Assembly: GCA_018711385.1 (NCBI GenBank)
Contig: DVIK01000009.1
Coordinates: 1 to 34,698, forward strand
Origin: Candidatus Coproplasma avistercoris
GTDB lineage: Bacteria; Bacillota; Clostridia; Christensenellales; Borkfalkiaceae
Reading direction: 5' to 3'
Length of the DNA: 34,698 nucleotides
Positions 6,317 through 31,146 of the stretch are shown in pieces. The notes below the pieces were generated by a model. It searched no databases and had not been told where the DNA came from. It was given only the letters and a program-made list of their open reading frames with translations. Both the position numbers and the translations under genes were made by a program. Positions within the stretch are counted from its first letter, which is position 1, and each line of letters opens with the position of its first letter.

Positions 6317-6331
6317 TCAGGCCCAATAGTT

Positions 6332-6394: not shown

Positions 6395-7495
6395 ATGTTC
6401 AAAGCAGACGATTACAGATTAAGGCTCAAGTCGCTTTCGGAGACGCTCGCGGAGGCAAAATATGCCCTCGACATAGACAACATCGGCGATAAGCTGAAGG
6501 AGCTGCGCGCCGAACAGGAGAAGCCCGAGGTGTGGAACGACCTTGAAAAGTCCAAACACATCGGCAGGGAGATCTCGGTCATCGAAGGCAAGATAGCCGC
6601 ATACAACAAGGGCGAGAGTGCGCTCAAAGACGCGCAGGCATTTGTAGACCTCATCGAGGAGGCCGACGACGAGAGCCTCGTGCCCGAGCTGGAGAAGATG
6701 ATAAATTCGGCGGAGTCCGACATAGAGGAGATGCGCATTAAGGCGCTGCTCAAAGGCAAGTATGACGCCAACAATGCGATTTTGAGCCTGCATGCGGGCG
6801 CGGGCGGCACAGAGGCGTGCGACTGGACGCAGATGCTCTACCGCATGTACCAGCGCTACTGCGAAAAAGAGGGCTTCAAAGTGACCGAACTCGACCGTGA
6901 GGACGGCGACGAGGCCGGCATCAAGAGCGTGAGCTTCAAGGTGGAGGGCGAAAACGCCTACGGCTTCCTCAAAGCCGAAAAGGGCGTGCACAGGCTGGTG
7001 CGCATCTCGCCCTTCGACAGCAACAAGCGCCGCCACACCTCGTTTGCCTCGCTCGAGGTTATGCCCGAGGTCGACGACGAGGGCGAAGTTGAGATCCGCG
7101 ACGAGGACATAAGGATAGACGTCTACCGCTCCTCGGGCGCGGGCGGGCAGAAAGTAAACAAGACCGAGACCGCCATAAGGATAACGCACTTCCCCACGGG
7201 CATAGTCGTGACCTGCCAGAACGAGCGCAGCCAGCTGCAGAACAAGGCGATGGCGTTCCAGTACCTGCGCGCAAAGCTGGTGGAAAGGCAGATCGCCGAG
7301 CGCGAGGCTGCCGACGCAGAGCTCAAGGGCGAGATAAAGAAGATAGAGTGGGGCAGTCAGATACGCTCTTATGTGTTCTGCCCGTACACCCTGGTAAAGG
7401 ATCACCGCACGGGATATGAAATGACCGACATCCAGGCTGTGATGGACGGCGACATTCAGGGATTTATCATCGACTACCTCAAAAAGACGGGCTGA
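6395..7495 (+). CDS. prfB: Peptide chain release factor 2
   Basis: RF2 recognises UGA and UAA stop codons and triggers peptide release on the ribosome. The 366-residue protein has the domain 1 helices, the stop-codon recognition tripeptide SPF within [15 protein letters not shown], and the catalytic GGQ in [13 protein letters not shown]. The start at 6395 is chosen because AAAGGAAA lies five bases upstream and the MFKADDYRL beginning matches RF2 N-termini; the reading frame extends to 6341 but without a ribosome site. Most bacterial prfB genes need a +1 frameshift at an in-frame UGA around codon 25. Here the equivalent place (6461-6472, encoding YALD) reads CTC GAC with no stop, so autoregulatory frameshifting is absent. 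Downstream of secA, probably cotranscribed. Confidence 0.97.
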
Positions 7496-7576
7496 TATGC
7501 CCTGTTCATTGCAATTTCTGCTTAAAAATCAAAGCGCCGCAGGCGCGGTAATAGTTCCATTAAAGGAGGGAAAAAC

Positions 7577-8062
7577 ATGGCTGCAACTTTAAGCGTTGCC
7601 GAAAGGTGTATGGCACTTTCGCGCAAGGTGCTCACACTGGGCATAGGCATCAACAGCAGGAGGAGCGCGCAGGAGATCTTCAGGCAGCTGAGCGAATGCG
7701 CCAACGAGTTCGGTTCGGACATGATAGCGCTGAACTATCTGCCCAACCGCTCTATGCGCGCACAGCAGGCCGTGGAATGCGTAAAGTGCGGGCAGAAGGT
7801 GATATATCTGCTCAATCTTGCGTTGCGCGAGGGAATGTTCGACGGCAAGGCGGTAAGCGAGGCGCTCCAGATGGCGATCGTGCTCGAAAACGAGGCCAAC
7901 GCGCTCGTAAAGGCGTATGTGCCCGGTCCCGCGCCGGAGCCTGCAAAGCCCGAGCCTGAACCCGCACCCGAACCCGAGCCCGAGGCGGTGGCGGAGCCCG
8001 AACCCGAGCCCGATCCTGACCCCGACGGCTTCGACGCGCCCTTCGAAGGCGACCTCAACTGA
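7577..8062 (+). CDS. Hypothetical helical protein with Pro/Glu repeat tail
   Basis: A 161-residue protein I do not recognise. Residues 1-115 look entirely helical, with a CVKCGQ segment near residue 70. This part is vaguely like small four-helix-bundle proteins, but I cannot assign a family. The tail from about residue 118 is a Pro-Glu run (PEPEP units passing into DPDPD) ending in FEGDLN, probably an extended acidic linker or spacer. There is no signal peptide or membrane helix, so it is likely cytoplasmic. The start has a strong GGAGG eight bases upstream. It stands alone between prfB and tsaD and is followed by a hairpin. A small structural or binding role is possible, but nothing in the sequence shows it. 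Confidence 0.75.
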   Translation: MAATLSVAERCMALSRKVLTLGIGINSRRSAQEIFRQLSECANEFGSDMIALNYLPNRSMRAQQAVECVKCGQKVIYLLNLALREGMFDGKAVSEALQMAIVLENEANALVKAYVPGPAPEPAKPEPEPAPEPEPEAVAEPEPEPDPDPDGFDAPFEGDLN

Positions 8063-14722: not shown

Positions 14723-15532
14723 ATGAAAAAATTTGTAGCGCGCGGCGCGTGCGATCTGAAAACTTTCACCGACGAGAACTATCCGCAGGGCAGCTTTGCC
14801 TTTGCGGCGCTGCTGCGTGCGCGCGATATAAGGGTCAACGGCGTGCGCACGGGCGCAAACGTGCGGCTGAACGCCGGCGACGAGGTGACCTACTACACCA
14901 CTCCCGCGCAGGAGGCAAAGCGCAGTCACGACGTCATATATGCCGACGAAAACGTGATGGTGTGCGATAAATATTCGGGCGTCTCCTCGGAAGGGCTGGC
15001 TTCGGAACTCTGCCATTTGGGCGCGCTGCCCGTGCACAGGCTGGACAGGAACACCGAGGGGCTGATAGTCTATGCGCTAGGCGGCGCGGCGGAGGAGGAA
15101 CTGCTTCGCGCATTCAGGCAAAGGCGGGTGCATAAGACCTACCTTGCGCTGTGTAAAGACGCGTTCGCGCAGCCGTGCGGCACGCTTACCGCATACATCA
15201 AAAAGGGGGAAGGCGGCGTAAAGGTGTACGGCTTTCCCTGCGCGGGCGCGTTGACCGCCGTGACCGAGTACCGCGTGGAGGAACGCACGGACGGGATTGC
15301 ACTGGTGAACATAACGCTGCACACCGGCAGGACGCACCAGATACGCGCGCACATGGCGTTCATCGGCTGCCCCGTGCTCGGGGACGAAAAGTACGGCGAC
15401 GGCGCGCTCAACAAAAAATACGGCGCGCGCAGGCAGCGGCTGGTTTCAAAGACGCTGCAATTTGAGCTCGAAGGGCCGCTGAAATACCTGAACGATATAA
15501 AATTCATAAGCAGGTTCGTGCCGCACATTTAG
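14723..15532 (+). CDS. RluA-family RNA pseudouridine synthase with S4 domain
   Basis: A 269-residue pseudouridine synthase that isomerises uridines in rRNA or tRNA. The N-terminal region (GSFAFAALLRARDIRVNGVRT) is an S4-like RNA-binding fold. The catalytic motif HRLDRNTEG places the nucleophile at Asp108, and the later HTGRTHQIRAHMAFIGCPVLGD is typical of RluA/RluD. The exact target base cannot be predicted. It lies 43 bp after feoB with no clear promoter in the gap. The stop codon lies within the loop and start of the 3' arm of the terminator hairpin. A second, shorter RluA-type gene stands at 33.9 kb. Confidence 0.93.
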   Translation: MKKFVARGACDLKTFTDENYPQGSFAFAALLRARDIRVNGVRTGANVRLNAGDEVTYYTTPAQEAKRSHDVIYADENVMVCDKYSGVSSEGLASELCHLGALPVHRLDRNTEGLIVYALGGAAEEELLRAFRQRRVHKTYLALCKDAFAQPCGTLTAYIKKGEGGVKVYGFPCAGALTAVTEYRVEERTDGIALVNITLHTGRTHQIRAHMAFIGCPVLGDEKYGDGALNKKYGARRQRLVSKTLQFELEGPLKYLNDIKFISRFVPHI

Positions 15533-15543: not shown

Positions 15544-15571
15544 AATTGTTTGCGACATATGCGGGCACCAA

Positions 15572-15712
15572 TTGCCCATAGCCGGCTTGCCCGTGACAAA
15601 CAGCCCCGAAAGGAACCTTCATGGTTTCGGCATGCGCAGCATACGCGCCTCGGTCGAGCGCTACAACGGCTGCGTGCTCGCGGAGATGAGGGACGGCAGT
15701 TTCTGCATATTT
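15572..15712 (+). pseudogene. Fragment of a GHKL-type sensor histidine kinase C-terminus
   Basis: The frame from 15572 encodes LPVTNSPERNLHGFGMRSI, then ASVERYNGC and a short beta segment DGSFCIF. This is the G2-box end of a GHKL ATPase domain as in LytTR-linked sensor kinases (usual form HGxGLxSI then YxG). Everything upstream (dimerisation helices, N box, sensor) is missing, because the frame starts just after the previous terminator, and the frame is lost after CIF at about 15712. It is a remnant with no likely function. The assignment rests on about 45 residues. Confidence 0.6.
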
Positions 15713-15713
15713 C

Positions 15714-15884
15714 GGCATCATAGGCGAGGTCACCGTAACGCTCGGCGCGCACGAAAGCAAGACGGTCCTTCTTGTGCAGAGCGTCGCGCGCGAAGATAGT
15801 GCCGCGCCCTATCATCAGATGGAAGTGACGGCCGGCGGCGCCGATGGCTACGACATAACCGTATACGGCTATCGCGCGGTATAA
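15714..15884 (+). pseudogene. Decayed open frame of unknown origin
   Basis: Fifty-seven open codons without a start, beginning where the kinase remnant loses frame. They encode GIIGEVTVTLGAHESKTVLL and end in DITVYGYRAV before TAA. The codon use looks coding (strand-rich, Ser/Val/Gly). It may be the end of a second lost gene fused to the kinase fragment, or the same decayed gene shifted by one base (a single extra C at 15713 would join them). I cannot name the family. Confidence 0.4.
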
Positions 15885-16058: not shown

Positions 16059-16355
16059 ATGATTTATTTCAAAAGATTTTGCTGCCCGTGCGCTTTCACG
16101 GGCTTGACAATTCAGAGGATAGTTTATCCCACGGGTACTCTCTGCATTTGTCCTACCGGCCCTACGGGTGCTACGGGGCCTGCGGGTGCAACGGGGCCTG
16201 CGGGGGCAACGGGGCCTGCGGGTGCAACGGGCCCGACGGGTGCAACGGGGCCGACGGGTGCAACGGGCCCGACGGGGGCTACTGAGCAGGTGGTTTATGG
16301 GGATCTGCGCCCGCAGGCGGCATGCATAATTTTTATTGGCTTAAATTTGCGCTGA
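16059..16355 (+). CDS. Collagen-like protein, 5' half (truncated)
   Basis: A 98-residue open frame. Residues 1-34 form a Cys-rich leader ([13 protein letters not shown], later CICPTG). About 15 Gly-X-Y triplets of the PTG/ATG/PAG type follow, then ATEQVV and an apparently unrelated end (YGDLRPQ to GLNLR). Bacillota proteins of this kind (BclA-like) are surface or exosporium fibres with a globular C-terminal domain, which is missing here. A matching start-less 3' half lies at 20.6-21.3 kb, joined to this one by a 46-bp identical repeat. The ATG has a hairpin and GAGG just upstream. It may be translated as a short fibre stub, be a pseudogene, or be the start of a gene rejoined by DNA rearrangement. 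Confidence 0.7.
16159..16204 (+). repeat. Direct repeat copy 1 (46 bp, collagen-coding)
   Basis: Identical over 46 bp to 20662-20707 in the same orientation and the same codon phase. It encodes [15 protein letters not shown]. Part of the identity is expected from repetitive Gly-X-Y codons, but the exact codon choice also matches. Confidence 0.85.
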
Positions 16356-16359
16356 CCTG

Positions 16360-16388
16360 TTGCAACATTCAAAACAATGTGTTATAGT
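16360..16388 (+). promoter_or_regulatory. Promoter of the uracil salvage operon
   Basis: TTGCAA (16360-16365), 17-bp spacer, TATAGT (16383-16388). The predicted leader is about 70 nt; no PyrR-type attenuator hairpin with U-tract is visible in it. Confidence 0.75.
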
Positions 16389-16466
16389 TATACAGGTGTA
16401 TAAAATTTAACAGAGCAATCAGCGGAGATGTCCGTAAGAAATATACAAAAGAGAGGGAATTTTACG

Positions 16467-17942
16467 ATGAAATTGATTTACGGCGTGAAAGACAGGCCAA
16501 AAGCCGGACAGCTTATTCTGTTTGCTTTGCAGCAGCTGCTTGCCATTCTTGCGGCAACAATAGCTGTTCCGATGATAATAGGCAACGGCATGTCTGTCTC
16601 TGCGGCGCTTTTCGGCGCGGGCGTGGGCACTATCGTTTACCTGCTTTTCACCAAATTCAAAAGCCCTGTGTTCCTCGGCAGTTCGTTTGCGTTCATAGGC
16701 TCTATGTCCGCGGCGTTTGCGGGTGCGGCATCCGTCTCGTTCCTGGGCTATTTCGGGCTGATAATCGGCGCAATATTTGCAGGGCTTGTATATGTGATCA
16801 TTGCCGTGATAATCAGGTTCGTCGGCGTAAACTGGATAGATAAAGTCATGCCCGCCGTGGTCATAGGCCCTACTGTGGCGCTAATAGGCCTGTCGCTTGC
16901 CGGCAATGCCGTAGGCAACGTTGCAGGCAACGTCATCGATCCGGGTACGGGCGCTTACCTTATGGATGCGCACGGCATAATCTGCCTTGTCTGCGGCCTT
17001 ATCACTCTTGCGGTCACCATGGTCTGCTCCATTTACGGCAAAAAGCTGTTAAAGATGATCCCCTTTATTATCGGCATTCTTTCCGGCTATGTTGTGGCGG
17101 CAATATTCACGGGATTCAGCTATATAGAAGGCGCCGAGGCTCTGAGGATAATAGACTTTTCAAAGTTTACCCAAATGGAGTGGTATCCCGAGTTTACCTT
17201 TCTGGATCTGTTCAAGATAGATTATGGCGCGGCCGATATGGGCGCATACATAGGCACGGTGGCCGTTGCTTATATTCCCGTTGCGTTTGTGGTGTTCGCC
17301 GAACACCTCGCCGACCATAAAAATATATCTTCGATCATAGAGACAGACCTGTTAAAAGATCCGGGCCTTTCAAGAACGCTGCTTGGCGACGGAGTGGGCT
17401 CGATGGTGGGCGCGTTCTTCGGCGGCTGCCCCAATACGACGTACGGCGAGTCGGTCGGCTGCGTGGCCATTTCGGGCAACGCCTCTGTGATAACGATTTT
17501 TATGACTGCCGTCCTGGCCGTTGTGGCGTCGTTTATAGCGCCCTTCGTTACATTCCTTGCAACGATCCCCGACTGCGTGATGGGCGGCGTCTGCATAGCT
17601 CTGTACGGCTTCATTGCCGTGTCGGGACTTAAAATGATACAGCAGGTGGATCTCAACGAAAACAAGAACCTGTTTGTAGTTTCAATAATTCTTATAACGG
17701 GCGTGGGCGGGATGGCCCTTCAGTTCGGCAAAGTTACTATAACGGCCATTGCGTGCGCTCTTATACTTGGAATACTTGCAAATGTTCTGGTGAATATACG
17801 CGCCAAAAAGAAGGGCGGCGCTGCCTCCGGAGACGACGCGGCGCAGGCTGAAGGAGTCAAGGAAGAGGGGGACAGGCTTACCGCCGAACCTTCGGCCATG
17901 GCAAACGTACAGGCAGAGGAGAATAACAATGGAACGTTATGA
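16467..17942 (+). CDS. uraA: Uracil permease, NCS2 family
   Basis: A 491-residue nucleobase:cation symporter in the cytoplasmic membrane, predicted to import uracil. The opening [11 protein letters not shown], followed by [17 protein letters not shown], and [10 protein letters not shown] closely follow UraA/PyrP. About 12-14 hydrophobic segments are seen, with the family segments [10 protein letters not shown] (substrate-binding Glu) and [11 protein letters not shown] hydrophilic acidic tail of about 50 residues closes it. The start at 16467 is preferred to 16428 because GAGGG lies nine bases upstream and YGVKDRPK is where UraA proteins begin. The 3' end overlaps upp by 14 nt, and this pairing with upp argues for uracil rather than xanthine. 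Confidence 0.93.
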
Positions 17943-18567
17943 AAATGTATTTATCTTCGATCATCCGCTGATAAAGCACAAGATATCCATACTGCGCGAT
18001 AAGAAAACGGGGATGAAGGAGTTCCGCGAACTTATCGAAGAGATCACAACCATAATGACCTACGAGAGCATGAGGGACGTGGAGCTTGTTCCCGTAGAGG
18101 TCGAAACTCCGCTGGAGACCACGATTCAGTACAGAATAGCTGAAGACAGCATTGCCATAGTGCCCATACTCCGCGCGGGTCTGGGTATGGTAAACGGCGT
18201 GCACAGAGTTTTTCCCAACGCAAAAGTGGGGCACATAGGCATGTACCGCGACGAGGAAACTCTTGAACCTCACGAATATTACTGCAAATTGCCCGAGGGC
18301 ATAGAAAATAAGACGGTTTTTCTTATAGACCCCATGCTGGCGACGGGCGGTTCCGCCTGCGACGCTCTAAATGCGCTCAAAAAACGGGGTTGCAAAAAAA
18401 TCAAGCTGATGTCTGTTATCGCCGCTCCCCAGGGCGTAAAGGCGGTGGCGGAGGCGCATCCCGATGTCCCTGTGTATGTGTCCACGCTCGACAGGGGGCT
18501 CAACGAACACGGCTACATTCTCCCCGGATTGGGCGACGCCGGCGACAGATTGTACGGCACAAAGTAA
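17929..18567 (+). CDS. upp: Uracil phosphoribosyltransferase
   Basis: A 212-residue type I phosphoribosyltransferase that makes UMP from uracil and PRPP, trapping imported uracil. The PRPP loop [10 protein letters not shown] is intact, with the upstream ILRAGLGM and the C-terminal uracil-binding [10 protein letters not shown]. Length matches the family (about 208-212). The start overlaps the permease end by 14 nt, giving coupled translation. Start site GAGGAG lies nine bases upstream. The operon ends at the terminator 30 bp downstream. Whether this operon belongs to the recombinase element or is native is unresolved. Confidence 0.97.
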
Positions 18568-18595
18568 ATAACTGCCTGCATTTAAGGTAAAACGA

Positions 18596-18624
18596 GGCAG
18601 CGGCTTTTTAAGCCGCTGCCTTTT
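18596..18624 (+). terminator. Terminator of the uraA-upp operon
   Basis: A perfect 11-bp stem GGCAGCGGCTT / AAGCCGCTGCC with TTT loop and TTTT tail, 28 bp after the upp stop. Confidence 0.92.
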
Positions 18625-18764
18625 GTAATCAAACCCCGAAGAGCGGTAACAGAGAATTCCAATGAACGGCAGTGCGCGCATAGGGAATGAGGATCATATC
18701 ATGATAAAGGAGATAAAACGGCAGCCTGCATTTTAATTCGGGGGATAAAACGATCAGACAGTCA

Positions 18765-18986
18765 TTGCAACAATTACAGGCAAAATATACAAATTGCCCT
18801 AAAACCGCCGCGAACCGTGATGTCGAGGGAGCAAGATATATCATCACAAGGCATTTTACGGGAGAAAAAGACATATCGAGCTGCATTTTGCAACTTGCGG
18901 TAAGTCGTGCCGACAGGGAGGCGGGTATAACTTCCGGAGAAGTTTTGAAATGCCCGTCGGGGTGTGCCGGATATGACAACCTTTAA
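18765..18986 (+). CDS. TnpW-like small transposon protein
   Basis: Seventy-three codons from a TTG start (no ATG is available; the frame is open upstream to a TAA near 18712). The core ARYIITRHFTGEKDISSCIL resembles the short TnpW family carried next to TnpX-type recombinases in Clostridia transposons, whose function is unknown. It lies 27 bp before the recombinase, in the same direction, and probably in one transcript. The TTG lacks a good ribosome site, so the exact start and even expression are uncertain. The preceding 140 bp hold only a 24-codon frame from 18661 and no recognisable gene. Confidence 0.5.
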   Translation: MQQLQAKYTNCPKTAANRDVEGARYIITRHFTGEKDISSCILQLAVSRADREAGITSGEVLKCPSGCAGYDNL

Positions 18987-19013
18987 TACAGCTTTGGCAA
19001 AAGAGGAGGTCAT

Positions 19014-20645
19014 ATGTCAAAGCTCAGAAAACTGAACAGAACGGCTCTTTACATGCGGCTTTCGCGCGACGACGAAAAGGCGGGCGAGAGCATGTCGATA
19101 GAAAACCAGCGCGCTATCCTTCGCAAATTCGTATCGGAAAACGACGGCGCGATAACAGACGAGTACATAGACGACGGCTGGTCTGGCACCGACTTCGACC
19201 GCCCCGGCGTTAAAAGGCTTTTGGACGACGCAAAGGGCGGGAAGATCGACACTATCGTCGTAAAGGACTTGTCGCGCTTCGGGAGGAATTACATTCAGGT
19301 CGGGCAATATATCGACTATATCTTCCCAGCCTACGGCATACGCTTTATCGCGCTTTCGGACAACGTGGACACGGCGGACAGAACGAGCGCGGGCATGGAT
19401 ATGATGCCTATAATGAACGTCTTTAACGAGTGGCACGCGGCGAACACCTCAAAGAAGATACGCGCCGTGCTGGAGGCAAACTGGCGGCAGGGCAGGTGCA
19501 CCAACTGGGCTTATCCGTATGGTTATAAGGCAGGGACGGACGAAAACCGCACGGCTGTAATAGACGAACCTGCCGCAAAGGTCGTAAGGCGCATATACGA
19601 TATGCGGTTGCAGGGCAACTCCGCATGCGCGATTGCGCGGGCGCTCACCGACGAAGGCATACCCACCCCTGCGGCATACTATACCCGCCTCGACGGCAAA
19701 AAGGCAAACCGCAGAAGTTCGCCCTGGTGGTCGCCCAAGACGGTGGCGGACATTCTAAAAGACACAACTTACACGGGCACGCTCACCCAGCACCGCACTA
19801 CGCGCTTTTCCTATAAAAACCACAAGGTGCTGAATGTTCCCGAAAGCGAGCGTATAGTCAGGGAGAACGCGCACGAGGCGATCATCGACAGGCAAACGTG
19901 GGATAAAGTGCAGGCGATAAACAACTCCGTTTCCCGCGGCAGACACGACAAAGCCAACATGGTTCACCCATTATCGGGGCTGCTCATCTGCCCCGATTGC
20001 GGCAAAAAGCTCAAAGGCAAAAGCGGCGGGCGAGATAGGATTTATATGTACTGTTGCCGCACTTATGTAGATCTCGGCAAAAGATATTGCACTTCACATT
20101 CCATCACCGAAAAGCAGATAGAGAGCATTGTCTTGCAGGACATTCGCTCTATGCTCGGCAGGGTGGAAATTGACGAGGAGAGGGCAAAGGAGCATTTCTT
20201 CAAAGAACGCGCAAAGTGCGGCGAGCGCAACAGACTGTCGGACGAAAAGCGGTTGCACTCATTCAACGACAGGCTTGCGGAGTTGGATAAGCTTATTCAA
20301 TCGGCTTTTGAAGAAAAAGTCCTCGGTAATTTACCCGAAAGTATGTGCAAGAGCCTTTTCGAAAAGTATCAAGTGGAAAAAGAAAGCGCGCAAAGGCAAA
20401 TTAACATGCTTGAAGAGCAGATTGCCGCAGTAAATGAAATGGACGCGGAAGTCGAGGAATATATAGCGCAGCTGAAGCGGTATGCGAATTGCGAGGAGCT
20501 GACGCGCGAGATGTGTCTGCAACTTATCGAGTTCATCACCATAGGCGAACGACCTTCGGACGATACCCCGCGCGAAATCCACATTTACTACAAATTTATA
20601 TCTTACCAAACGCTTGCGGAATACCGCGGGCAAACTACAAAATAA
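19014..20645 (+). CDS. Large serine recombinase (TnpX/TndX type)
   Basis: A 543-residue site-specific recombinase that can integrate or excise DNA between attachment sites. The resolvase domain spans about residues 10-155, with the nucleophile Ser17 in YMRLSRDDE and the VKDLSRFGRN segment. A Recombinase domain follows (about 165-290), then a zinc ribbon (CPDCG, CC, YC; about 325-365), a coiled coil rich in Glu/Lys (about 400-475) and a C-terminal DUF4368-like segment (REIHIYYKF). All catalytic parts are intact, so activity is plausible. AGAGGAGGT lies four bases before the ATG. The stop TAA is followed in the same frame by the Cys-rich start of the collagen-like 3' half, so the gene lies right at the junction. 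Confidence 0.95.
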   Translation: MSKLRKLNRTALYMRLSRDDEKAGESMSIENQRAILRKFVSENDGAITDEYIDDGWSGTDFDRPGVKRLLDDAKGGKIDTIVVKDLSRFGRNYIQVGQYIDYIFPAYGIRFIALSDNVDTADRTSAGMDMMPIMNVFNEWHAANTSKKIRAVLEANWRQGRCTNWAYPYGYKAGTDENRTAVIDEPAAKVVRRIYDMRLQGNSACAIARALTDEGIPTPAAYYTRLDGKKANRRSSPWWSPKTVADILKDTTYTGTLTQHRTTRFSYKNHKVLNVPESERIVRENAHEAIIDRQTWDKVQAINNSVSRGRHDKANMVHPLSGLLICPDCGKKLKGKSGGRDRIYMYCCRTYVDLGKRYCTSHSITEKQIESIVLQDIRSMLGRVEIDEERAKEHFFKERAKCGERNRLSDEKRLHSFNDRLAELDKLIQSAFEEKVLGNLPESMCKSLFEKYQVEKESAQRQINMLEEQIAAVNEMDAEVEEYIAQLKRYANCEELTREMCLQLIEFITIGERPSDDTPREIHIYYKFISYQTLAEYRGQTTK

Positions 20646-21269
20646 TTCCCGTATTGCACCTGCCCTACGGGTGCTACGGGGCCTGCGGGTGCAACGGGGC
20701 CTGCGGGTGCCACCGGTCCTACGGGCGTAACGGGGCCTACGGGGGCAACGGGGCCGACGGGTGCGACCGGGCCGACGGGGGCAACTGGGCCTGCGGGTGC
20801 GACCGGGCCGACGGGTGCGACCGGGCCGACGGGCGTTACGGAGCCGGTGCAGGCGCAGGGGCTGGCCGCTTACTCTTTGCCCGCGGCGTCGGTGGCAAGC
20901 GGAGGTCAGGTGATCTTCGACCGCAATGCGACCCAGGCGGGTACCGCCGTTTCGCATACGCAGAATACCGCGCCGGTCACTATTTCGCAGACGGGCACAT
21001 ACTTCGTGCACTATGCCGCCACAATCACGCCTACGTCGTCGACGTTTCCCGTAAGCAATCTGACCAATTTTACCATAAACGGACAGACGCAGAGCGCGGG
21101 CACTTCGCAGATAGTATTCAGCGCAAACTCCCCGCAGCGTACGGTTGCGTCGCTGTTGTTCAATGTGACTTCAGTGCCTGCAACGCTCGCGGTCGTTTCC
21201 AGCGGCGGAACGTTCCTTTATTCCGACGCTTCGCTCAATGTGTTCAGGGTGGGGGATAGCTCTTCGTAA
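20646..21269 (+). pseudogene. Collagen-like protein, 3' half with BclA-like C-terminal domain (no start codon)
   Basis: The open frame begins directly after the recombinase stop (FPYCTCPTG), has about 19 Gly-X-Y triplets, then VTEPVQAQ and a globular domain of about 140 residues ([49 protein letters not shown]). This matches the jelly-roll C-terminal domain of BclA-like exosporium/surface proteins. There is no ATG or ribosome site before the repeats, so it cannot be made as it stands except by recombination with the 16-kb half or by translation restart. The coding frame is undamaged for over 200 codons, which argues for recent disruption or for maintained function. Confidence 0.75.
20662..20707 (+). 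repeat. Direct repeat copy 2 (46 bp, collagen-coding)
   Basis: Identical to 16159-16204, offset 4503 bp, same orientation. In both copies the first base is codon position 2, so a crossover keeps the frame and would join 33 upstream codons to 202 downstream codons. Confidence 0.85.
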
Positions 21270-21357: not shown

Positions 21358-22755
21358 TTATTCTTCTTCGTCGTCCTCGCGATCTTCGGCGGTCCGCTCG
21401 CGCTCCTTTTTGCGCTTGCCGGAATTGCTCGTGTATGCCAGGTATGCAACGCCCGCTATCACGAGCACCACTATCACAAGCACGAGCACAACGGTGAGCA
21501 CGGCGTTCTCTTCGCTGTAATCTTCGGGGGTCTGGGGCTCGCCGAATTGCCCGTCTTCGCCCGAAAAGTCGTAGGCGGTAATAAAGCCGGATGCCACGTA
21601 GCCCTCTGTAGCGGCGCCGTTTTCATCGGTGTAGCTCACCCGGCAGAAATCTGCAGTGAGCGCGGCGTTATTCTGAACCGTAAGTTCGTACAGCACCTCC
21701 AGTTTTGCTCCCGGTTCAAGCACAGTAAGTTCAGTTGCGCCGCACATATAGGGGGAAGAATATATTCCCGCCGAATAGTTCAGCTGGCCGTGCCCGAACG
21801 GCGCGGGGGATATCGAGGCTGCGGAAGTTACGCCAACCGTATCCGTGATGTACGTCTTGCCGTCGGCCGTAACAATTATGTCGGCATCGCCGCTGGTGCA
21901 CAGCAACAGCGCGCTCATGCTGCCTGAAGTCATGAATGTGCCGCCTTCTCCCACGGCAAAATATTCGCTACCGATGTCGCCGAGGTCTATTTCGGTCACA
22001 TACTTCCTTGCCGCAACGGTTACAAACTGTGCCTCGGCGCTCACATGTCTGAGTAGCGCCGCGCTGTCGCCAACGGCGATCTGCGTCTCGTGCGATTTGT
22101 CTATGAATCTGAACTCTAAGGGCAAAACTTCAAGCTCTTCAAGCGTGTCGCCGGAAATAATGCACAGCAGGCCGTCCCTTATTGCCAGCGCTCCGTCAAA
22201 GGCGGCCGTCACTTGAGAATATGCGCCGTCTTCATACACTTTCGACTCGCCTGAAACGGTGGTGTCGATTATGTTCAGCTTGCCGTCGGCGGAGATGAAC
22301 GCCGTAAAATTGCCGAAGTCCACGGTGTTGTCGGGCGTGAATTTTGCGCTGCTCTCAGCGACCGTCCCGTCGGAGTAAGTATAGGACTGCCCCGTCGCGT
22401 CGGCAAACAGCAGATCGCTGCCCTCGTGCCACAGCTGCGTGATGTCCGTGCCGTGGCGGTAGGCGTACAGCCCCTCGTCGGAGGCGAGCAGCGTGCCGCC
22501 CTCGATGACCGCGCCGTCGCCCTCTTCGGCGAGCGTGCCGTCCGAGTATATATACAGTTCCCTTGCGGAATTATCGCCTATAAGCGCGAACTGTCCGTCA
22601 GAGCACGAATAGCACTCTATCGCGCCTATATCGAGCGTGGACACAAAGTCGGGGTATGAGGTGCCGCCCGCGGCTTCGGCGTATTCGGTTTTCAGGCCCG
22701 CGGGCACGGCAAGCAGCAGCGCCGCGCCCGCTATTGCGGCTGCAACTCTGTTCAT
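21358..22755 (-). CDS. Membrane-anchored surface protein with repeated YSDGT units
   Basis: A 465-residue exported protein of unknown function. The N-terminus MNRVAAAIAGAALLLAVPAG is a signal peptide. The extracellular part has related strands (IYSDGTLAEEG, TYSDGTVAESS, VYEDGAYSQV), suggesting a beta-propeller or stacked-sheet fold, then an SH3-like segment (FCRVSYTDENG, EGYVASGF). A single membrane helix near residues 415-440 (VVLVLVIVVLVIAGVAYLAY) is followed by a short, highly charged Lys/Arg/Glu/Asp cytoplasmic tail. The frame is open to 22794, but the promoter -35 box lies in that stretch, so the ATG at 22755 is chosen; it is only 7 nt from the -10 box. The gene at 24696 has the same SH3-helix-charged-tail layout. 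Confidence 0.8.
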   Translation of the reverse strand: MNRVAAAIAGAALLLAVPAGLKTEYAEAAGGTSYPDFVSTLDIGAIECYSCSDGQFALIGDNSARELYIYSDGTLAEEGDGAVIEGGTLLASDEGLYAYRHGTDITQLWHEGSDLLFADATGQSYTYSDGTVAESSAKFTPDNTVDFGNFTAFISADGKLNIIDTTVSGESKVYEDGAYSQVTAAFDGALAIRDGLLCIISGDTLEELEVLPLEFRFIDKSHETQIAVGDSAALLRHVSAEAQFVTVAARKYVTEIDLGDIGSEYFAVGEGGTFMTSGSMSALLLCTSGDADIIVTADGKTYITDTVGVTSAASISPAPFGHGQLNYSAGIYSSPYMCGATELTVLEPGAKLEVLYELTVQNNAALTADFCRVSYTDENGAATEGYVASGFITAYDFSGEDGQFGEPQTPEDYSEENAVLTVVLVLVIVVLVIAGVAYLAYTSNSGKRKKERERTAEDREDDEEE

Positions 22756-22762
22756 ATATAAA

Positions 22763-22791
22763 ATTATAGCACACTGCGGCGCGATTGTAAA
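22763..22791 (-). promoter_or_regulatory. Promoter of the surface protein, leaderless geometry
   Basis: On the minus strand TTTACA (22791-22786), 17-bp spacer, perfect TATAAT (22768-22763), then 7 nt and the ATG at 22755. Transcription should start at or next to the A of the start codon, and no ribosome site exists. Confidence 0.8.
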
Positions 22792-22894
22792 CATTTTTGA
22801 AAGTTTGCCCGCAATTTTAAGTTGCGCATAAGGGCGATCGCTGTCGCAACCCGTCGCAAAAGGCGGAAAAGTGCGGCCTTCGCGTGCGCGCGTA

Positions 22895-25375: not shown

Positions 25376-26809
25376 ATGGACGAGGAAATTTTAAGCGAGA
25401 TAGCCCTCATAGACGGCGAGCTGGAGCGGCGCAGGAAGCAGAATGTGCTTGCGCGCTACAATGCGGGCAGAAGAAAGCACAAAAAGCAGATGGCCTTCCA
25501 CAGGTGCAAAAAGCGCAACAGATGGGTGTTCGGCGGCAACCGTTCGGGCAAGACGGAGTGCGGCGCGGTGGAGGCTATATGGATGGCGCGCGGCATACAT
25601 CCCTACCGCAGGAACAGAAAGGACGTGTTCGGCTGGGTGGTATCCCTTTCGCAGCAGGTGCAGCGCGACGTGGCTCAGAGCAAGATACTGCACTACCTGC
25701 CGAAGAACTGGATTGCCGACATAGTAATGCTGTCCGGCAGGAAGGACAGCCCTGCCTCGGGCATAATCGACCAGATAAAGCTTAAAAACGTGTTCGGAGG
25801 GATATCCACGATAGGCTTCAAGAGCTGCGACCAGGGCAGGGAAAAGTTCCAGGGCGCTTCGCTCGACTTCGTGTGGTTCGACGAAGAGCCCCCGCGCGAC
25901 ATATACGAAGAGTGCCTGATGAGGGTGATGGACAGGAAGGGCGACATCTTCGGCACCATGACGCCGCTCAAGGGCCGCACCTTCGTCTATAACGAGATCT
26001 ACCTGAACGCCAGGCGCAACCCCGAGGTCTGGTACGAATTCATGAACTGGGAGGACAATCCGTTTCTCTCGGCAAGCGAGGTAAAGCTGCTCGAAGGCGC
26101 CCTCGACCAAAGTTCGCTCGACAGCCGCAAGTACGGCCGCTTTTCCGAGGGGTACGGGCTGGTATATCCCGAATTCGACGAAAGCGTGCACGTCGTAAAG
26201 CCCTTTTCCGTGCCGTCCGAATGGCAGGAGAACGTCTCCATCGACCCGGGTCTGCACAACCCGCTCTCCGCGCACTGGTACTGTGTGGACTGGGACGGGA
26301 ATATCTACGTCGTGGCGGAGCACTACGAAAAGGGCAGGGACATAGATTTTCACGCCGCCGCCATAGACGAAATAAGCCGCAGGCTGGGCTGGAAGCGCGA
26401 CGGCAGCGGCCGCATATCCGCCCTTATAGACAGCGCCGCGGGCCAGCGCACGCTGGCCTCTTCCAAGTCGGTCTCCGAGCTGTTCTACGAACGCGGCATC
26501 GCCGTCAATCCCAACGTGGATAAGGACGTTTTTTCGGGCATATCCCGCGTCAAAAGCTATCTTGCGCGCGGCAACGGGCAGCCGGATATCTACATATTCG
26601 ACTGCTGCGAAAACATGATAGCAGAGTTCAAAAGCTACAGCTGGGGCGCCGGCGACAGGCCGATAAAGGCGGGCGACCACGCCATGGACGAGCTGAGATA
26701 TTTCGTGATGTCGCGGCCGCACGCACCCGAGCGGGCAAAGGAGCAGGGCGCGCTTGCGCGGGACAAGGCGCGCAGGATAAGGAGGTTGAACAGAAAAATT
26801 GAACGATGA
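25376..26809 (+). CDS. terL: Phage terminase large subunit
   Basis: A 477-residue packaging motor that pumps and cuts DNA at the portal. The ATPase domain has Walker A GGNRSGKT (53-60) and Walker B LDFVWFDEE (163-171). The RNase-H-like nuclease domain has acidic residues at Asp290 (SIDPG), Asp352 (LIDSAAG) and near GDHAMDEL, the usual three-metal-ligand set. All key residues are present. The start ATG has only a weak GAGG ahead, and no convincing promoter lies in the 11-bp gap or just inside the divergent gene. It heads a gene string in P22 order. No small-terminase gene is recognisable upstream. Confidence 0.93.
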   Translation: MDEEILSEIALIDGELERRRKQNVLARYNAGRRKHKKQMAFHRCKKRNRWVFGGNRSGKTECGAVEAIWMARGIHPYRRNRKDVFGWVVSLSQQVQRDVAQSKILHYLPKNWIADIVMLSGRKDSPASGIIDQIKLKNVFGGISTIGFKSCDQGREKFQGASLDFVWFDEEPPRDIYEECLMRVMDRKGDIFGTMTPLKGRTFVYNEIYLNARRNPEVWYEFMNWEDNPFLSASEVKLLEGALDQSSLDSRKYGRFSEGYGLVYPEFDESVHVVKPFSVPSEWQENVSIDPGLHNPLSAHWYCVDWDGNIYVVAEHYEKGRDIDFHAAAIDEISRRLGWKRDGSGRISALIDSAAGQRTLASSKSVSELFYERGIAVNPNVDKDVFSGISRVKSYLARGNGQPDIYIFDCCENMIAEFKSYSWGAGDRPIKAGDHAMDELRYFVMSRPHAPERAKEQGALARDKARRIRRLNRKIER

Positions 26810-27068
26810 TGGCGTTAAGAAGGCACTGGTGAGGTGCGCCGTCGGCTTCGATACCAGCGAGGTTGTGGAGGAATATACCATGGCCGACGGCGAGCTGAAA
26901 CTGGTAAAGCGCAAAGTGACGCGGCGGGACGTCCCGCCCGACATAAAGGCGGTGAAGATGCTGCTGGACGGAGAGGCCGACATCGGCGGCATGAGCGACG
27001 AGGAGCTGGAAGAGCGGCGCAAAAAGCTGCTCGCAATGTTGGAAAACAATGCTGAAAAGAAGGACTGA
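26799..27068 (+). CDS. Small phage protein next to terminase
   Basis: 89 residues overlapping the terminase end by 11 nt, so coupled. DTSEVVEEYTMADGELKLVK leads into a charged linker and KRKVTRRDVPPDIKAVKMLL, then a helical Glu/Lys end. Small proteins of this type often sit beside terminase genes in Clostridia phages; a small-terminase or packaging-adaptor role is possible but not shown by any motif, and a DNA-binding helix-turn-helix is not evident. Confidence 0.75.
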   Translation: MNDDGVKKALVRCAVGFDTSEVVEEYTMADGELKLVKRKVTRRDVPPDIKAVKMLLDGEADIGGMSDEELEERRKKLLAMLENNAEKKD

Positions 27069-27129
27069 AAGCGCATTGGTTGCGGTATATATGCGGACAA
27101 ACGCGCTTTAATAAACATACGGAGGTATT

Positions 27130-28902
27130 ATGCGGAAAAATTCGGTCGACGAAAAACTTGCAGCCGAACGCAAGCTTGCCGAGCAGGTGGAGGCGGATTT
27201 CATGGCAAGGCGCGCGGCGCGCAAAATGCTGGAGAGGACGTGGCAGCTCAATGCCGAGTTCATTGCCGGCAGGCAGTACTGCGGCATAAACGCCGCCGGC
27301 GAGATCGAGGAGGAGGAAAAGAGCTACGGCTGGCAGCCGCGAAGGGTGTTCAACCGCATCGCGCCCACCGTGGAGCTGCGGTGCGCCAAACTTTCAAGGA
27401 TGAGGCCCGCCCTCTCGGTCCGCTCCCCCTCGGAGGACGAATGCGGAAAGGCGGCTGCCGCGCTCTCGGCCGCCATACTTGCCACCGCCGCGCAGACGGG
27501 AGGACTGGACGAGGCGCTCACCCGCGCGATCAACTGGTCCGAAACGTGCGGTACGGCCTTTTACAAGGTGGTGTGGGACAACGGCGGCGGGGCGGTCGTG
27601 GGGGAGTCGGACGGCGGCCCCGTGTTCGAAGGCGGCGTAAAGGTGATCGCGGTGCCGCCCGGAGAAATTTACCCCTACTCGCCCGATGAGGAGAGCGTGC
27701 AGGCGCAGCCCTCTATAATCCAGGCGCGCGCCCTGCCCGTGCAGGACATATATTCGGCATACGGCGTAAAACTTGCGGGCGGCGGCGACAGGCTGGGCGT
27801 AAAACTTGCCGAGGGCTATGAACTGCTGATAGAGCGCTATGAAAGGCCCGGCGCGGCCCGCAGCGACGGCCGGTTCACCGTGGTGGCGGGCGGCAGACTG
27901 CTCTACGACGGCGCGCTGCCCTATAAAAACGGCGTAAACGGCATACGCGGCTATCCGTTCGTCAAGCAGACGTGCATGCCGCTTGCCGGCAGCTTCTTCG
28001 GAACGAGCGTCGTGGAGAGGATGATCCCCGTACAGCGAGCCTATAACGCCGTGCGCAACCGCAAGCATGAGTTTCTCAACCGCATATCCATGGGCACAAT
28101 AGCCGTGGAGGAAGGTTCGGTGGACGCCGACGACCTTGCGGAGGACGGTCTGCGCCCGGGCAAGGTGATAATTTACAGGCAGGGCTCAAAGCCGCCCGAA
28201 ATGCTCACCATGGGCAGCCTGCCGGAGGCTTTCGAGAGGGAGGAGGAGACCCTGCGCGACGAGTTTGCCGCCATATCGGGCACGGGCGACATCACGCAGA
28301 ACGGCGACGCCTTTTCTTCGGTGACGTCGGCAACCGGCCTGCAGTTGCTCGTCGAACAGGACGAGGCCCGCCTGAACGTATGTTACGAAAGCATAAAGCA
28401 GGCGCTTAAAGAGGTGGGCAGGCATATACTTCGCCTTTACAGGCAGTTTGCAACCGAAACGCGGCTGGTAAGAGAGGGCGACGGCATGCGCTGTTTTAAG
28501 GGGTGCGAAATCACCGCCGACGACGTCGTGCTCGAATCGGACGGCGACGTCAACCTCACTCCCGCAGAGCGCAGAAACGTCATCTACGAGCTGATAGACA
28601 GGGGCCTGCTCAGCGACGAGGACGGAAAGCTCGGACGCGCGGCGCGCAACAGGGCGCTGGAATATATAGGCTACGGCTCGTTTGCCGAGGACGACTTGGC
28701 GCAGCTGCATGCGCGCAGGGCGGAGGAGGAGAACGCCGCGTTTGCAAGCGGAGAGGTGCCGGTGAAAGATTACGACGACCATGCCGTGCACATCGAGCGG
28801 CACACTGCATACCTGCTTTCGGGCAGGTGCCCCGCAGGCGAAGAGGAGCAGGTGGAAGCGCATATCGCGCTGCATAAAGATAAATCGAAGGAGGAAAAGT
28901 AA
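27130..28902 (+). CDS. Phage portal protein (P22 gp1-like)
   Basis: 590 residues; forms the twelve-subunit DNA channel at one head vertex. Recognised by position after terminase, size and portal-like segments: an N-terminal helical wing (RTWQLNAEFIAGRQY), FNRIAPTVELRCAKL, GTAFYKVVWD, FGTSVVERMIPVQRAYNAVRN, the long helix GLQLLVEQDEARLNVCYES and a terminal Glu-rich region. ACGGAGGT lies six bases before the ATG. Its stop overlaps the scaffold start as TAATG. Shorter than P22 gp1 (725) because the long C-terminal barrel is absent, as in many Gram-positive relatives. Confidence 0.85.
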   Translation: MRKNSVDEKLAAERKLAEQVEADFMARRAARKMLERTWQLNAEFIAGRQYCGINAAGEIEEEEKSYGWQPRRVFNRIAPTVELRCAKLSRMRPALSVRSPSEDECGKAAAALSAAILATAAQTGGLDEALTRAINWSETCGTAFYKVVWDNGGGAVVGESDGGPVFEGGVKVIAVPPGEIYPYSPDEESVQAQPSIIQARALPVQDIYSAYGVKLAGGGDRLGVKLAEGYELLIERYERPGAARSDGRFTVVAGGRLLYDGALPYKNGVNGIRGYPFVKQTCMPLAGSFFGTSVVERMIPVQRAYNAVRNRKHEFLNRISMGTIAVEEGSVDADDLAEDGLRPGKVIIYRQGSKPPEMLTMGSLPEAFEREEETLRDEFAAISGTGDITQNGDAFSSVTSATGLQLLVEQDEARLNVCYESIKQALKEVGRHILRLYRQFATETRLVREGDGMRCFKGCEITADDVVLESDGDVNLTPAERRNVIYELIDRGLLSDEDGKLGRAARNRALEYIGYGSFAEDDLAQLHARRAEEENAAFASGEVPVKDYDDHAVHIERHTAYLLSGRCPAGEEEQVEAHIALHKDKSKEEK

Positions 28903-29345
28903 TGGATAACCTGACGGACGAGAAGAGAGGCACGGCAGACACCGCGCAGGCGGAAGAGGAGAAGGAAGCTGCGGCAGGCCTCGGCAAGTTCAAGGACGTA
29001 AAGGCCCTTATGAATGCGTACGCCAGCCTGGAGGCCGAGTTCACCCGACGCAGCCAGAGGCTGAAGGAGCTGGAGGAGAAGAGCAAGGCGGAGGCGGTGC
29101 ATGCGCAGCAAGACGCCGCGCCCTCTTCTGCGCAGGACGGACGCAGCCTGTACGAGCGGGCCGCCGGCGACGAGGAGGTAAAAAATGCCATAATCGCCGA
29201 CTATCTTAAGGCGGTATGCTCGGGCAGGGGCGCACCCATGGCGACGGGCGGCGTTGCGGTGCCGTCGCCCAAAAACAAGCCTGCAAGCATAAAGGAAGCG
29301 GGCAGGCTCGCACGGCAATTTCTCAAAAATGACACGGAGGACTGA
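28902..29345 (+). CDS. Probable phage scaffolding protein
   Basis: 147 residues, acidic and helical (GLGKFKDVKALMNAYASLEA, then RLKELEEKSKAEA), Ala/Gln-rich middle, and a basic C-terminal helix (KEAGRLARQFLKND) as scaffolds use to bind coat protein. Identity rests on composition and on lying exactly between portal and coat, as P22 gp8 does. Start and portal stop overlap by one base (TAATG), and coat follows after 3 bp. Half the size of P22 gp8 (303). Confidence 0.75.
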   Translation: MDNLTDEKRGTADTAQAEEEKEAAAGLGKFKDVKALMNAYASLEAEFTRRSQRLKELEEKSKAEAVHAQQDAAPSSAQDGRSLYERAAGDEEVKNAIIADYLKAVCSGRGAPMATGGVAVPSPKNKPASIKEAGRLARQFLKNDTED

Positions 29346-29348
29346 AAA

Positions 29349-30494
29349 TTGATCACAATAGCTAACGCCGATAAGGCGCTCAAGACCTACTACCTTGACG
29401 CGGTAACGACCGCGTTGGACGGCATTTCGCCCTTTTACGCCGCCATCGACAAGAACAGCGCGGAAGTTTACGGCAAGGAAGTAAAAGTCGCCGTCGTGAG
29501 GGGCGACAATTCGCGCGTGATGGCAGGCACGGAGGACGGCGCCCTGCCCGCGGCAGGCAAGAACAGGTACATAACGCTTACGGGCGCGCTCAAAAACATC
29601 TACGGCACCATCGAGATCTCCGATAAGGCGATGAGGGCTTCGAAGAGCGCCGAGGGAGCGTTCGTGAACCTTGTCAACGCCGAAATGGAGGGGCTGGTCG
29701 CCAGCGCCAAGGCAAACTTTTCGCGCATGCTCTACGGCGACGGCAACGGCTTTCTTGCAACCATAACCGACACCGAAGACGGCATCGTGGTGGACGAGGC
29801 GTGCAGGCTCTCCGAGGGCATGCACGTCGATATCCGCAGCTCCACGGGCATAGTCGACGGCGGCACGGACATCACCGTCACTTCGGTAGACTATGCCACC
29901 AAGACCATAACGCTCAGCAGCACCCCCTCCGGCGTGCTCGCAAGCAAGGATATCTACGTTCACGGCGCCTACGGCAACGAACTTACGGGCTTTGCTGCGC
30001 TGTTCGGCACGGGCGACATCTACGGCGTCACGCGCAGCACCGAAAGCTACCTGAAGCCCAACGTGTTCACCGTAAGCTCGCTCACCGAAGAGGCGATAGC
30101 CGAAAAGATCGGCTACCTCGAACAGTACTACAACGACCGTCCCGACATGATCCTTTGCTCGTACAAGACCAGGGCAAAGATAGGCGAGCTGCTCGCACAG
30201 TCGCGCATGCAGGTGAATACCGAGATGCTCGCCGGCGGCTATCCCGCAATAATGTTCGACGGCATACCCGTGGTGGCGGACAAGTACTGCGGCGACGACG
30301 AGCTGTATCTGGTGAACACCGCCGACTTCTGCCTTGCGCAGCTGTGCGACTGGGCATGGCTCGAGGATGAGGACGGCAAGATACTCAAGCAGGTGCCCGG
30401 CAAGGCCGCTTACAGCGCTACGCTCGTGAAGTATGCCGAGCTTATCTGCAAAAAGCCCTGCGGCCAGGCGAAGATAACGGGATTTGCTTCCTGA
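29349..30494 (+). CDS. Major capsid (coat) protein
   Basis: 381 residues, starting at TTG with GGAGG nine bases upstream. It is the coat of an HK97-fold head: ITIANADKALKTYYLDAVTT, a E-loop-like region with PAAGKNRYITLTGALKNIYG, NAEMEGLVASAKANFSRMLYGDG, and later DRPDMILCSYKTRAKIGEL, AGGYPAIMFDGIPVVADKYC, the common beta-sheet end of Clostridia phage coats. No linked protease gene is present, so processing is not expected. The frame is intact and follows the scaffold by 3 bp. Codon use (ATA, GGC, CTC) is like the host genes. Confidence 0.9.
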   Translation: MITIANADKALKTYYLDAVTTALDGISPFYAAIDKNSAEVYGKEVKVAVVRGDNSRVMAGTEDGALPAAGKNRYITLTGALKNIYGTIEISDKAMRASKSAEGAFVNLVNAEMEGLVASAKANFSRMLYGDGNGFLATITDTEDGIVVDEACRLSEGMHVDIRSSTGIVDGGTDITVTSVDYATKTITLSSTPSGVLASKDIYVHGAYGNELTGFAALFGTGDIYGVTRSTESYLKPNVFTVSSLTEEAIAEKIGYLEQYYNDRPDMILCSYKTRAKIGELLAQSRMQVNTEMLAGGYPAIMFDGIPVVADKYCGDDELYLVNTADFCLAQLCDWAWLEDEDGKILKQVPGKAAYSATLVKYAELICKKPCGQAKITGFAS

Positions 30495-30547
30495 AAACTG
30501 CGCCGCACGCGGCATACTGCCGCACCGATCCAAACAACTTAATGCAT

Positions 30548-30570
30548 GCGCGCGGGCTTTGCCCGCGCGC
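30548..30570 (+). other. Hairpin between coat and neck genes
   Basis: A perfect 10-bp stem GCGCGCGGGC / GCCCGCGCGC with TTT loop, directly followed by the GGAGGAGG ribosome site of the next gene. There is no U-tract. It could stabilise the coat mRNA 3' end or reduce expression of the downstream neck genes. Confidence 0.6.
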
Positions 30571-30585
30571 GGAGGAGGTAAAAAT

Positions 30586-31146
30586 ATGCTCGTTTCCGAC
30601 ATTGTGAAGACGGCGCTCTGCCTCGTGGGCAGAAAGGACGCCGCCGACGCCATAGATTCGGACGATTACGAGGACGACAGGGAGCTTTCGCACGCCGTGA
30701 AGGCCATGCTGCACTGTTTCAACGCCGCCGAAGACGAGCTTGCGCGCGCATATTTCCCGCTGACGTGCGAAGAGAGTTTTACGCCCGTGCAGGGCAAAAT
30801 TTACTATACTTCTTTCGGGCGCATGCCCGTCAGGATACTCTCCGTCACCCGCGGCAAAAGAGCGGTTGCATATAACATATGTCCCGAATATCTTGAGATG
30901 GAGGGCGGCGAGGCGACCGTAAAATATGCCTATTGCCCGCAGAAGAAACAGCTTTCGGACGACAGTGATTTCGACGGCTACCCCGTGGGCGAACGCATGC
31001 TCGGTTACGGGGCGGCTTCGGAATACTGCCTTATAGAGGGCGCCTATGAGGAGGCGGAAAACTGGGAAGCGCGCTACCGCGCCGAGATCGAGCGCTTCCG
31101 CCCCTATAAAAAGGTGCGCCCGGTCCCCGCGAGGGCGTGGATATGA
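30586..31146 (+). CDS. Phage head-completion/adaptor protein (P22 gp4-like)
   Basis: 186 residues. An opening helix MLVSDIVKTALCLVGRKDAA and helical AVKAMLHCFNAAEDELARAY, then a beta-rich middle (FTPVQGKIYYTSF) and GYPVGERMLGYGAASEYCLI with a long helix RYRAEIERF. Helix-sheet-helix layout, size (P22 gp4: 166) and place behind coat support an adaptor that seals the portal. The start is chosen at ATG 30586 for its GGAGGAGG site. Its stop overlaps the next start as ATGA. Confidence 0.75.
   Translation: MLVSDIVKTALCLVGRKDAADAIDSDDYEDDRELSHAVKAMLHCFNAAEDELARAYFPLTCEESFTPVQGKIYYTSFGRMPVRILSVTRGKRAVAYNICPEYLEMEGGEATVKYAYCPQKKQLSDDSDFDGYPVGERMLGYGAASEYCLIEGAYEEAENWEARYRAEIERFRPYKKVRPVPARAWI

Follow-up and report, generated by a model that had tools for sequence, protein, structure and literature searches.

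When analyzing contig DVIK01000009.1 of Candidatus Coproplasma avistercoris (hereinafter the window, i.e., the whole 34,698-bp stretch of DNA under study, contig C60 of genome G000), we observed a collagen-like gene, located between an rluA-type gene and a conserved gene denoted m1, that is most likely a single gene interrupted by a 4,386-bp element (positions 16281 to 20666). Judging from sequence comparisons, this segment is very probably an integrative element whose recombinase belongs to a clade of DUF4368-type (TndX/TnpX-like) large serine recombinases (LSRs) for which Gly-X-Thr-coding DNA serves as the attachment site attB. The locus reads, from left to right, rluA-type gene, collagen 5' half, uraA, upp, a small open reading frame (ORF), the LSR gene, collagen 3' half and m1. 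The metagenome-assembled genome (MAG) that includes the window consists of 84 contigs with a total of 1.38 Mb and is 85% complete.

The 5' half of the collagen-like gene (16059 to 16282, plus strand) encompasses the start, a Cys-rich leader and 14 Gly-X-Y triplets that extend to the AC core of the left element end; its score with the collagen repeat profile PF01391 is 32 bits, above the 27.2 cut-off. The 3' half (20667 to 21269, plus strand) has no start and comprises 19 triplets followed by a C-terminal domain that scores 29 bits with the BclA_C profile PF18573 (E 1.1e-6), below the cut-off of 38 bits, so the domain is termed BclA-like only. The initial annotation of this DNA had described the split at 16059 to 21269, had placed an intact LSR at the 3' half and had proposed that a serine-recombinase element carrying uracil-salvage genes had split one collagen-like gene; all this agrees with the present analysis, in which an uninterrupted LSR of 543 amino acids ends directly before the right arm of the element and precise removal is predicted to restore the frame.

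The element has an arm-cargo-arm structure between two AC dinucleotides that are 4,386 bp apart. On the right side, the stop codon of the LSR gene is followed by the 21-bp arm TTCCCGTATTGCACCTGCCCT (20646 to 20666) and then by ACGGGT..., a Thr-Gly codon pair of the repeats, in which AC (20667-20668) is the core (attR, 20646 to 20668, plus strand). On the left side, the 5' half reads ...GGGGGCT, then the AC core (16281-16282), then the 21-bp arm TGAGCAGGTGGTTTATGGGGA (16283 to 16303), which together make up attL (16281 to 16303, plus strand), and the two arms are inverted counterparts of each other. In both places, AC lies within a Thr codon (ACN) of the Gly-X-Y repeats, in the same codon phase, and joining at AC is predicted to fuse the halves in frame into a gene of 274 codons. 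In all the sequence upstream of the LSR gene, the left arm is the top inverted match to the right arm (14 of 21 positions, with 12 for the runner-up), and it differs from the general end motif by one mismatch. Between upp and the LSR gene, no arm with three or fewer mismatches was found.

Read in frame, the left arm yields TEQVVYG, so that the sequence ATEQVV, previously interpreted as the natural tail of the 5' half, is the arm itself in translation. The same annotation had placed the crossover at a 46-bp direct repeat, the two copies of which (16159 to 16204 and 20662 to 20707, both on the plus strand) are indeed identical, but the left boundary of the element is at 16281-16283 rather than at 16159, and the rejoined protein has a predicted length of 274 rather than 235 residues. 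The repeat can be ruled out as the core of an attachment site since the end arms lie elsewhere; it represents homology of Gly-X-Y-coding DNA. In eight Gly-X-Y tracts of relatives, some of them incomplete and some at other loci, the longest exact internal repeat spans 14 to 47 bp; in three other split genes, identity between the halves extends over only 11, 16 and 11 bp.

Between the element ends in the window, only four genes were recognized, with no mobilization gene among them. The first is uraA (16428 to 17942, plus strand, with the likely start, chosen by eye, at 16467), which encodes an NCS2-type uracil permease (PF00860, 7.1e-73), the top NCBIfam matches of which (ncs2, uracil permease) fall below their cut-offs. 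It is followed by upp (17929 to 18567, plus strand), the gene for uracil phosphoribosyltransferase (PF14681, 1.4e-78; TIGR01091 above cut-off). The small ORF (18744 to 18986, plus strand, start uncertain) directly precedes the LSR gene and is a candidate for an accessory factor; as a lead only, it might encode a directionality factor. A crude motif screen detected similar small ORFs in 13 of 32 members of the clade, the one in the window included, and those of three relatives have no match in NCBIfam, two of these also having none in PHROG. The LSR gene itself (19014 to 20645, plus strand) encodes the Resolvase, Recombinase, Zn ribbon and DUF4368 domains, all four above their Pfam cut-offs in one protein.

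Relatives of this LSR were drawn from a search of 201 genomes of the family (39 genomes with a match at 1e-100), from the known loci of relatives, and from 84,980 species genomes, scanned by means of an alignment of 12 sequences, where at least 565 relatives were detected and 79 loci kept. Out of 135 loci with an LSR match, three were removed because of broken alignments and 34 as copies, which left 98. At identity of at least 56%, there are 39 LSRs, two without downstream sequence and 37 that were scored; a number of the rows are near-copies. Of these, 32 of 37 abut at least three Gly-X-Y triplets (counted over the 120 bases that follow the best end motif), compared with 0 of 59 among the LSRs below 56% (in the 260 bases after the stop codon, on both strands). 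In a maximum likelihood tree of 68 rows, which took in 30 of the 59 distant LSRs and from which L179 and other short rows were excluded, a single clade of 36 rows with 100/100 support included 31 collagen-adjacent LSRs, two without a call (L229 and L230) and three non-adjacent ones; none of the 32 rows outside the clade was collagen-adjacent, and L248 and L085 were placed just outside. Among the removed loci, L247 (84% and 70% identity, in two pieces) abuts five triplets, and L299 has no downstream sequence. The closest LSRs, among the matches listed, come mostly from MAGs of uncultured Clostridia and Firmicutes, with one each from Gastranaerophilales and Bacilli. Most of the bacteria in which the clade occurs are from the gut. 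The target collagen genes differ in their leaders and C-termini, indicating that related LSRs reside in more than one target gene. When the right-end pattern was searched with at most two mismatches in the 201 family genomes, 16 genomes contained it, compared with two for a reversed control pattern; in G002, G214 and G061, the match is not beside collagen DNA, and in G127 its adjacency to such DNA is doubtful. All LSR matches from phages and plasmids are below 60% identity, with 30 to 37% in the rows listed.

For the identification of left ends, the right arm of each element was compared with all the sequence upstream, the best inverted match after an AC was taken, and the flank was viewed afterwards. 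In seven loci, namely, the window, G149, L233, G004 (L240), G163, L243 and G220 (L244), Gly-X-Y DNA directly adjoins the best match (14 to 19 of 21); in the remaining loci with a result, where the left end is often beyond the available sequence, the best match was 4 to 14 of 21, with two or fewer triplets beside it. For G220, as for the window, the match of 14 of 21 is by itself not above background, and position is decisive. Together with G030, G169, G181 and a uraA-upp unit of G016, this gives 11 pairs of ends, which enclose 2.4 to 34.5 kb, and in 11 of 11 pairs, the crossover falls within an ACN codon in the same codon phase. The arms of the same element agree in 15.7 of 21 positions, compared with 12.8 of 21 for arms of different elements (11 elements, permutation p = 2e-5). 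L233 and L243 were first found by their own-arm match, which biases this result upward; without them, the nine remaining pairs give 15.7 compared with 13.5 (p = 8e-4).

The cargo of these sister elements, surveyed in a subset of the ORFs, is diverse. In G149, it includes two amylase-family proteins, a GH2 protein and a YitT-family membrane protein; in G169, alpha-L-rhamnosidase, GH35, L-fucose isomerase, a PfkB kinase, sugar transport proteins and LacI; in G163, a tyrosine integrase and a 1,884-amino-acid protein with an N-methylation motif; and in G004, a sigma factor and a weak, sub-cut-off helix-turn-helix match. The collagen-docked element of G220 carries a Gabija system (L084, positions 4116-7875), with GajA and GajB at 657 and 527 bits, along with two DUF2589 proteins. 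In G016, a 2.4-kb uraA-upp unit without an LSR, with weak arms (11 of 21), is separated by a short repeat tract from the end of the preceding LSR. At the m1 locus of the same genome, a right end was seen by eye after a lipoprotein-like gene, and the 1.2 kb before it, back to the contig start, contain no LSR. In G030, the element adjoins m1, with the collagen gene in the orientation relative to m1 opposite to that in G002, G015, G268 and G270, and a second left end is present after about 190 bp of Gly-X-Y DNA, the 3' tract (L024, minus strand, oriented position 13386), so that elements seem to dock in tandem. Two contigs of G016 are nearly identical in their first 170 positions (L170 in C18 and L023 in C41), and both break at a common repeat. 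In G124 (C1:392378), a right end abuts the 3' part of a collagen gene with no LSR nearby and no convincing left end in the 28 kb upstream (best match 12 of 21); the matching LSR, about 20 kb upstream, is not beside collagen DNA.

The region beside m1 was examined in eleven relatives (m1 match of at least 45%). In 4 of the 11 (G002, G015, G268 and G270), m1 has as its convergent neighbor an intact collagen gene, complete with leader, repeats and a BclA-like C-terminus; in G230, there is a frame break in the C-terminal part of the gene, and in G266 and G288, the gene is cut by contig ends. Element ends were found at the m1 loci of G016 and G030; no collagen gene was detected in the 4 kb beside m1 of G250, and the contig of G003 stops about 120 bp beyond m1. 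By SecA, G266 is the nearest (94%) among the 29 genomes compared. In this genome, a collagen gene with the leader MFFYDKFCCLCPVQGIKVEKIVYPTG, similar to that in the window, comes after the rlu gene and has 37 triplets up to the contig end; the contig with m1 breaks off in repeats, which adjoin the part for the C-terminal domain, and an identical stretch of 56 bases is present at both contig ends. This arrangement fits one uninterrupted gene, with the reservation that the overlap is repeat DNA. When the rlu gene was searched in 12 genomes, 11 had no detected collagen gene in up to 1.5 kb beyond it, so that the adjacency of the two genes is seen only in G266 and in the window.

Among the genomes of the genus, 39 of 93 contain upp, and its surroundings were viewed in 19 of the 39. 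Within the group of 12 genomes with SecA identity of at least 88% (across nearly its full length, among 29 genomes compared), upp is found only in G000, G016 and G030, and in all three, the left end of an element lies 143 to 154 bp before the uraA coordinate used. Outside this group, in G251, a left end likewise precedes uraA, in a different collagen gene near tsaD, prfB and secA, with no right end or LSR detected in 10 kb. In 12 other uraA-upp loci, one of them from another family, the left-end candidates have four to six mismatches and none is beside Gly-X-Y DNA; no element end was seen at the uraA-upp loci of G269, G267, G277 and G278, where G267 and G278 have little upstream sequence. Between G016 and G251, Upp is 99.1% and UraA 90.8% identical, compared with 80.8% for SecA. 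Furthermore, UraA of G251 is 90.8% identical to that of G016, 89.2% to that of G000 and 84.4% to that of G267, an order that conflicts with that of SecA (87.3% to G267, 80.8% to G016 and 76.5% to G000). At the DNA level, uraA-upp identity is 84.8% for the window and G016, 83.0% for the window and G251, 85.7% for G016 and G251, and 79.5% for the window and G030. Taken together, these comparisons suggest that uraA-upp probably spread horizontally via these elements. In G267, uraA-upp is followed after about 167 bp by an intact collagen-like gene with a BclA-like C-terminus (L221, 2481-3268), and no element ends are present, an arrangement that possibly hints at the origin of a cassette.

By analogy with known serine integrases, the LSR would recombine attP, a symmetrical 21+AC+21 site with the structure arm-AC-arm as a circular form would have it, with attB in Gly-X-Thr DNA, where the repeats, GGN-NCN-AC-NGG-NNC, are near-palindromic about AC. 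The consensus of the docking sites from the 11 pairs, GG--C-AC-GG--C-AC-GG--CT|AC-GG--C-ACGGG, consists of repeats and is almost palindromic about AC; hence both half-sites would be available many times per gene. The AC dinucleotide is itself non-palindromic, which could explain why nearly all the elements are in the sense orientation relative to the gene, only 2 of the 32 collagen-docked elements being antisense (L238 clearly, L249 marginally). In all 11 pairs, the crossover position falls within an ACN codon at either end, so that insertion and excision alike would preserve the frame. With the element in place, the host would lose the collagen protein and gain uraA-upp; precise excision would return the in-frame collagen gene.

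Several observations weigh against this scenario. The match of the window arms (14 of 21) is no better than the chance maximum, up to 14 of 21, in loci where the left end was not found, which has slightly lowered our confidence, and the left end in the window rests on the general motif and on its position inside the repeats. The 46-bp identity of the halves is long, without an explanation, and as evidence is ambiguous. The 56% threshold was chosen after the table had been seen, the clade being supported by the tree; five of the 37 LSRs (L035, L237, L241, L248 and L085), and L090 from among the removed loci, with no triplets, lack adjacent collagen DNA, and draft MAGs are the source of the collagen-adjacent loci. 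A search of viral contigs with the exact degenerate attP pattern gave 0 matches and no attP joint; when the LSR alignment was used on viral contigs, 53 stretches there fit a pattern, none of them confirmed. No conjugation or virion gene was detected among the cargo ORFs scanned. Finally, the DNA identity of uraA-upp exceeds that of secA (84.0% for the window and G016, 80.5% for the window and G251, and 80.6% for G016 and G251) only modestly.

The architecture of the window could also be that of a programmed element, the timed excision of which would restore a collagen gene that the host requires only at that stage. As portrayed in excerpts of PMC4191935, PMC5025042 and PMC5595907, the skin, SPbeta/spsM and gin elements interrupt one gene each, which is restored by excision, as is predicted for the window; unlike them, the clade described here has many target genes and varied cargo. 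In favor of such a switch, a single gene is interrupted in codon phase by an element with an uninterrupted LSR at its end, and 34 of 37 genomes, G000 included, have Spo0A_C. Nevertheless, we consider this improbable, given that the sister elements are found in different collagen genes with unrelated cargo, that the gene is intact beside m1 in four relatives, that two elements, one of them marginally, are antisense, and that the uraA-upp unit of G016, its weak arms notwithstanding, has no LSR. Moreover, SpoIVA, which is above cut-off in 26 of the 37 genomes, was not found in G000 (an 85% complete MAG), G001, G002, G010, G015, G016, G020, G039, G040 and G046 and is below cut-off in G003; within the 12-member SecA group of the window, the check covered G000, G002, G003, G015 and G016. 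The variable targets and cargo, together with the SpoIVA result, favor a mobile element over a developmental switch, although programmed or phase-variable use is conceivable.

The main alternative offered by the initial annotation, namely, two tandem collagen-like genes, one without its C-terminus and one without its leader, here taken to flank native uraA-upp with the LSR as a separate insertion, would account for the 46-bp repeat at both starts, which is longer than the identity between the halves of the three other split genes, and finds a parallel in the intact collagen gene next to uraA-upp in G267. It is, however, contradicted by the paired inverted ends, by the synteny in G266, where the two parts fit one gene, and by the four intact relatives. 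The TEQVV sequence belongs to the left arm, which was the best inverted upstream match without collagen being used as a criterion; with the supposed tail so explained, the alternative fails. Elsewhere, end pairs of this type enclose very different cargo, and no comparable arm lies between upp and the LSR gene, so we assign to tandem genes a very small probability. Similarly slight is the chance of an assembly artefact, i.e., a false join of repeat-rich collagen DNA in a MAG. Gly-X-Y repeats do break contigs, as in G004 and G266, where contigs end in repeats, and the rlu-collagen adjacency rests on one relative, with no collagen gene detected beyond rlu in 11 of the 12, which slightly raises the probability of an artefact. 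Against this, the same architecture recurs in MAGs from several projects, and arms and codon phase agree in all 11 pairs. An integrative element that docks in collagen repeats appears to us by far the best account of the window.

Similar features are known from the staphylococcal cassette chromosome (SCC), in which cassettes with changing cargo are moved by LSRs, tandem cassettes occur and some units have no recombinase. Unlike in SCC, the window LSR scores far below the cut-offs for CcrA, CcrB and CcrC (135 bits compared with 900 for CcrB), and the collagen target gene is broken. Part of the text of Durrant et al. 2022 (PMC10083194) describes a multi-targeting LSR clade in which DUF4368 is common and to which TndX-like transposases belong. 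The window LSR resembles it in the four shared domains, several target genes and a dinucleotide core, but differs in that members of its subclade mostly occur at a single type of target, a collagen codon repeat; that part of the paper mentions no target of this type. A 2026 paper (PMC13137831, in the part drawn upon) used such LSRs with dinucleotide cores; the word collagen is absent from the main texts of PMC10083194 (0 occurrences) and PMC13137831. With the mobilizable transposons of the Tn4451/Tn6104 type, as summarized in a portion of PMC3158075, the window element shares a TnpX-like LSR, variable cargo, insertion within genes and a 2-bp site; it differs from them in the lack of a mobilization gene, the AC core, the long inverted arms and the collagen target. 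Searches of the open-access literature, judged by title or the start of the abstract, gave no paper on serine recombinases targeting collagen-like genes.

The use of a low-complexity coding repeat as attB by a recombinase clade would be unusual: many sites would be available per genome, in perhaps dispensable surface genes, with each precise excision restoring the frame. This would account for some of the broken collagen-like genes in these MAGs, would suggest an exchange route for uracil salvage, sugar use and Gabija defence, and would provide LSRs with a codon-repeat target along with an end motif usable to find further elements. Conceivably, albeit tentatively, collagen repeats might be a common docking platform, where cassettes with or without a recombinase dock in tandem, move in trans and toggle the surface protein off and, in frame, on again; the uraA-upp unit of G016 and, perhaps, the unit at the m1 locus of the same genome would then be cassettes without a recombinase of their own. 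Such a platform might, on an equally speculative note, be viewed as intermediate between an integron and a surface-protein switch.

Of the genes that flank the collagen-like gene, the rluA-type pseudouridine synthase gene (14723 to 15532, plus strand, PF00849) is the left neighbor, and between it and the collagen start, a possible remnant of a coding sequence was noticed by eye (15560-15880). The right neighbor, m1 (21358 to 22794, minus strand), is convergent with the collagen gene, has no match in a Pfam scan and no assigned function, and adjoins collagen genes in several relatives. A minus-strand ORF used as a marker (25391-27118), which overlaps the gene for terminase, is unlikely to be a real gene. 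Phage head genes occupy 25376-34608, including those for the terminase large subunit (25376-26809), portal (27130-28902) and major head protein (29349-30494); a portal gene, 64 to 81% identical, is located near m1 in several relatives, so the head genes near m1 look like a conserved phage-like block.

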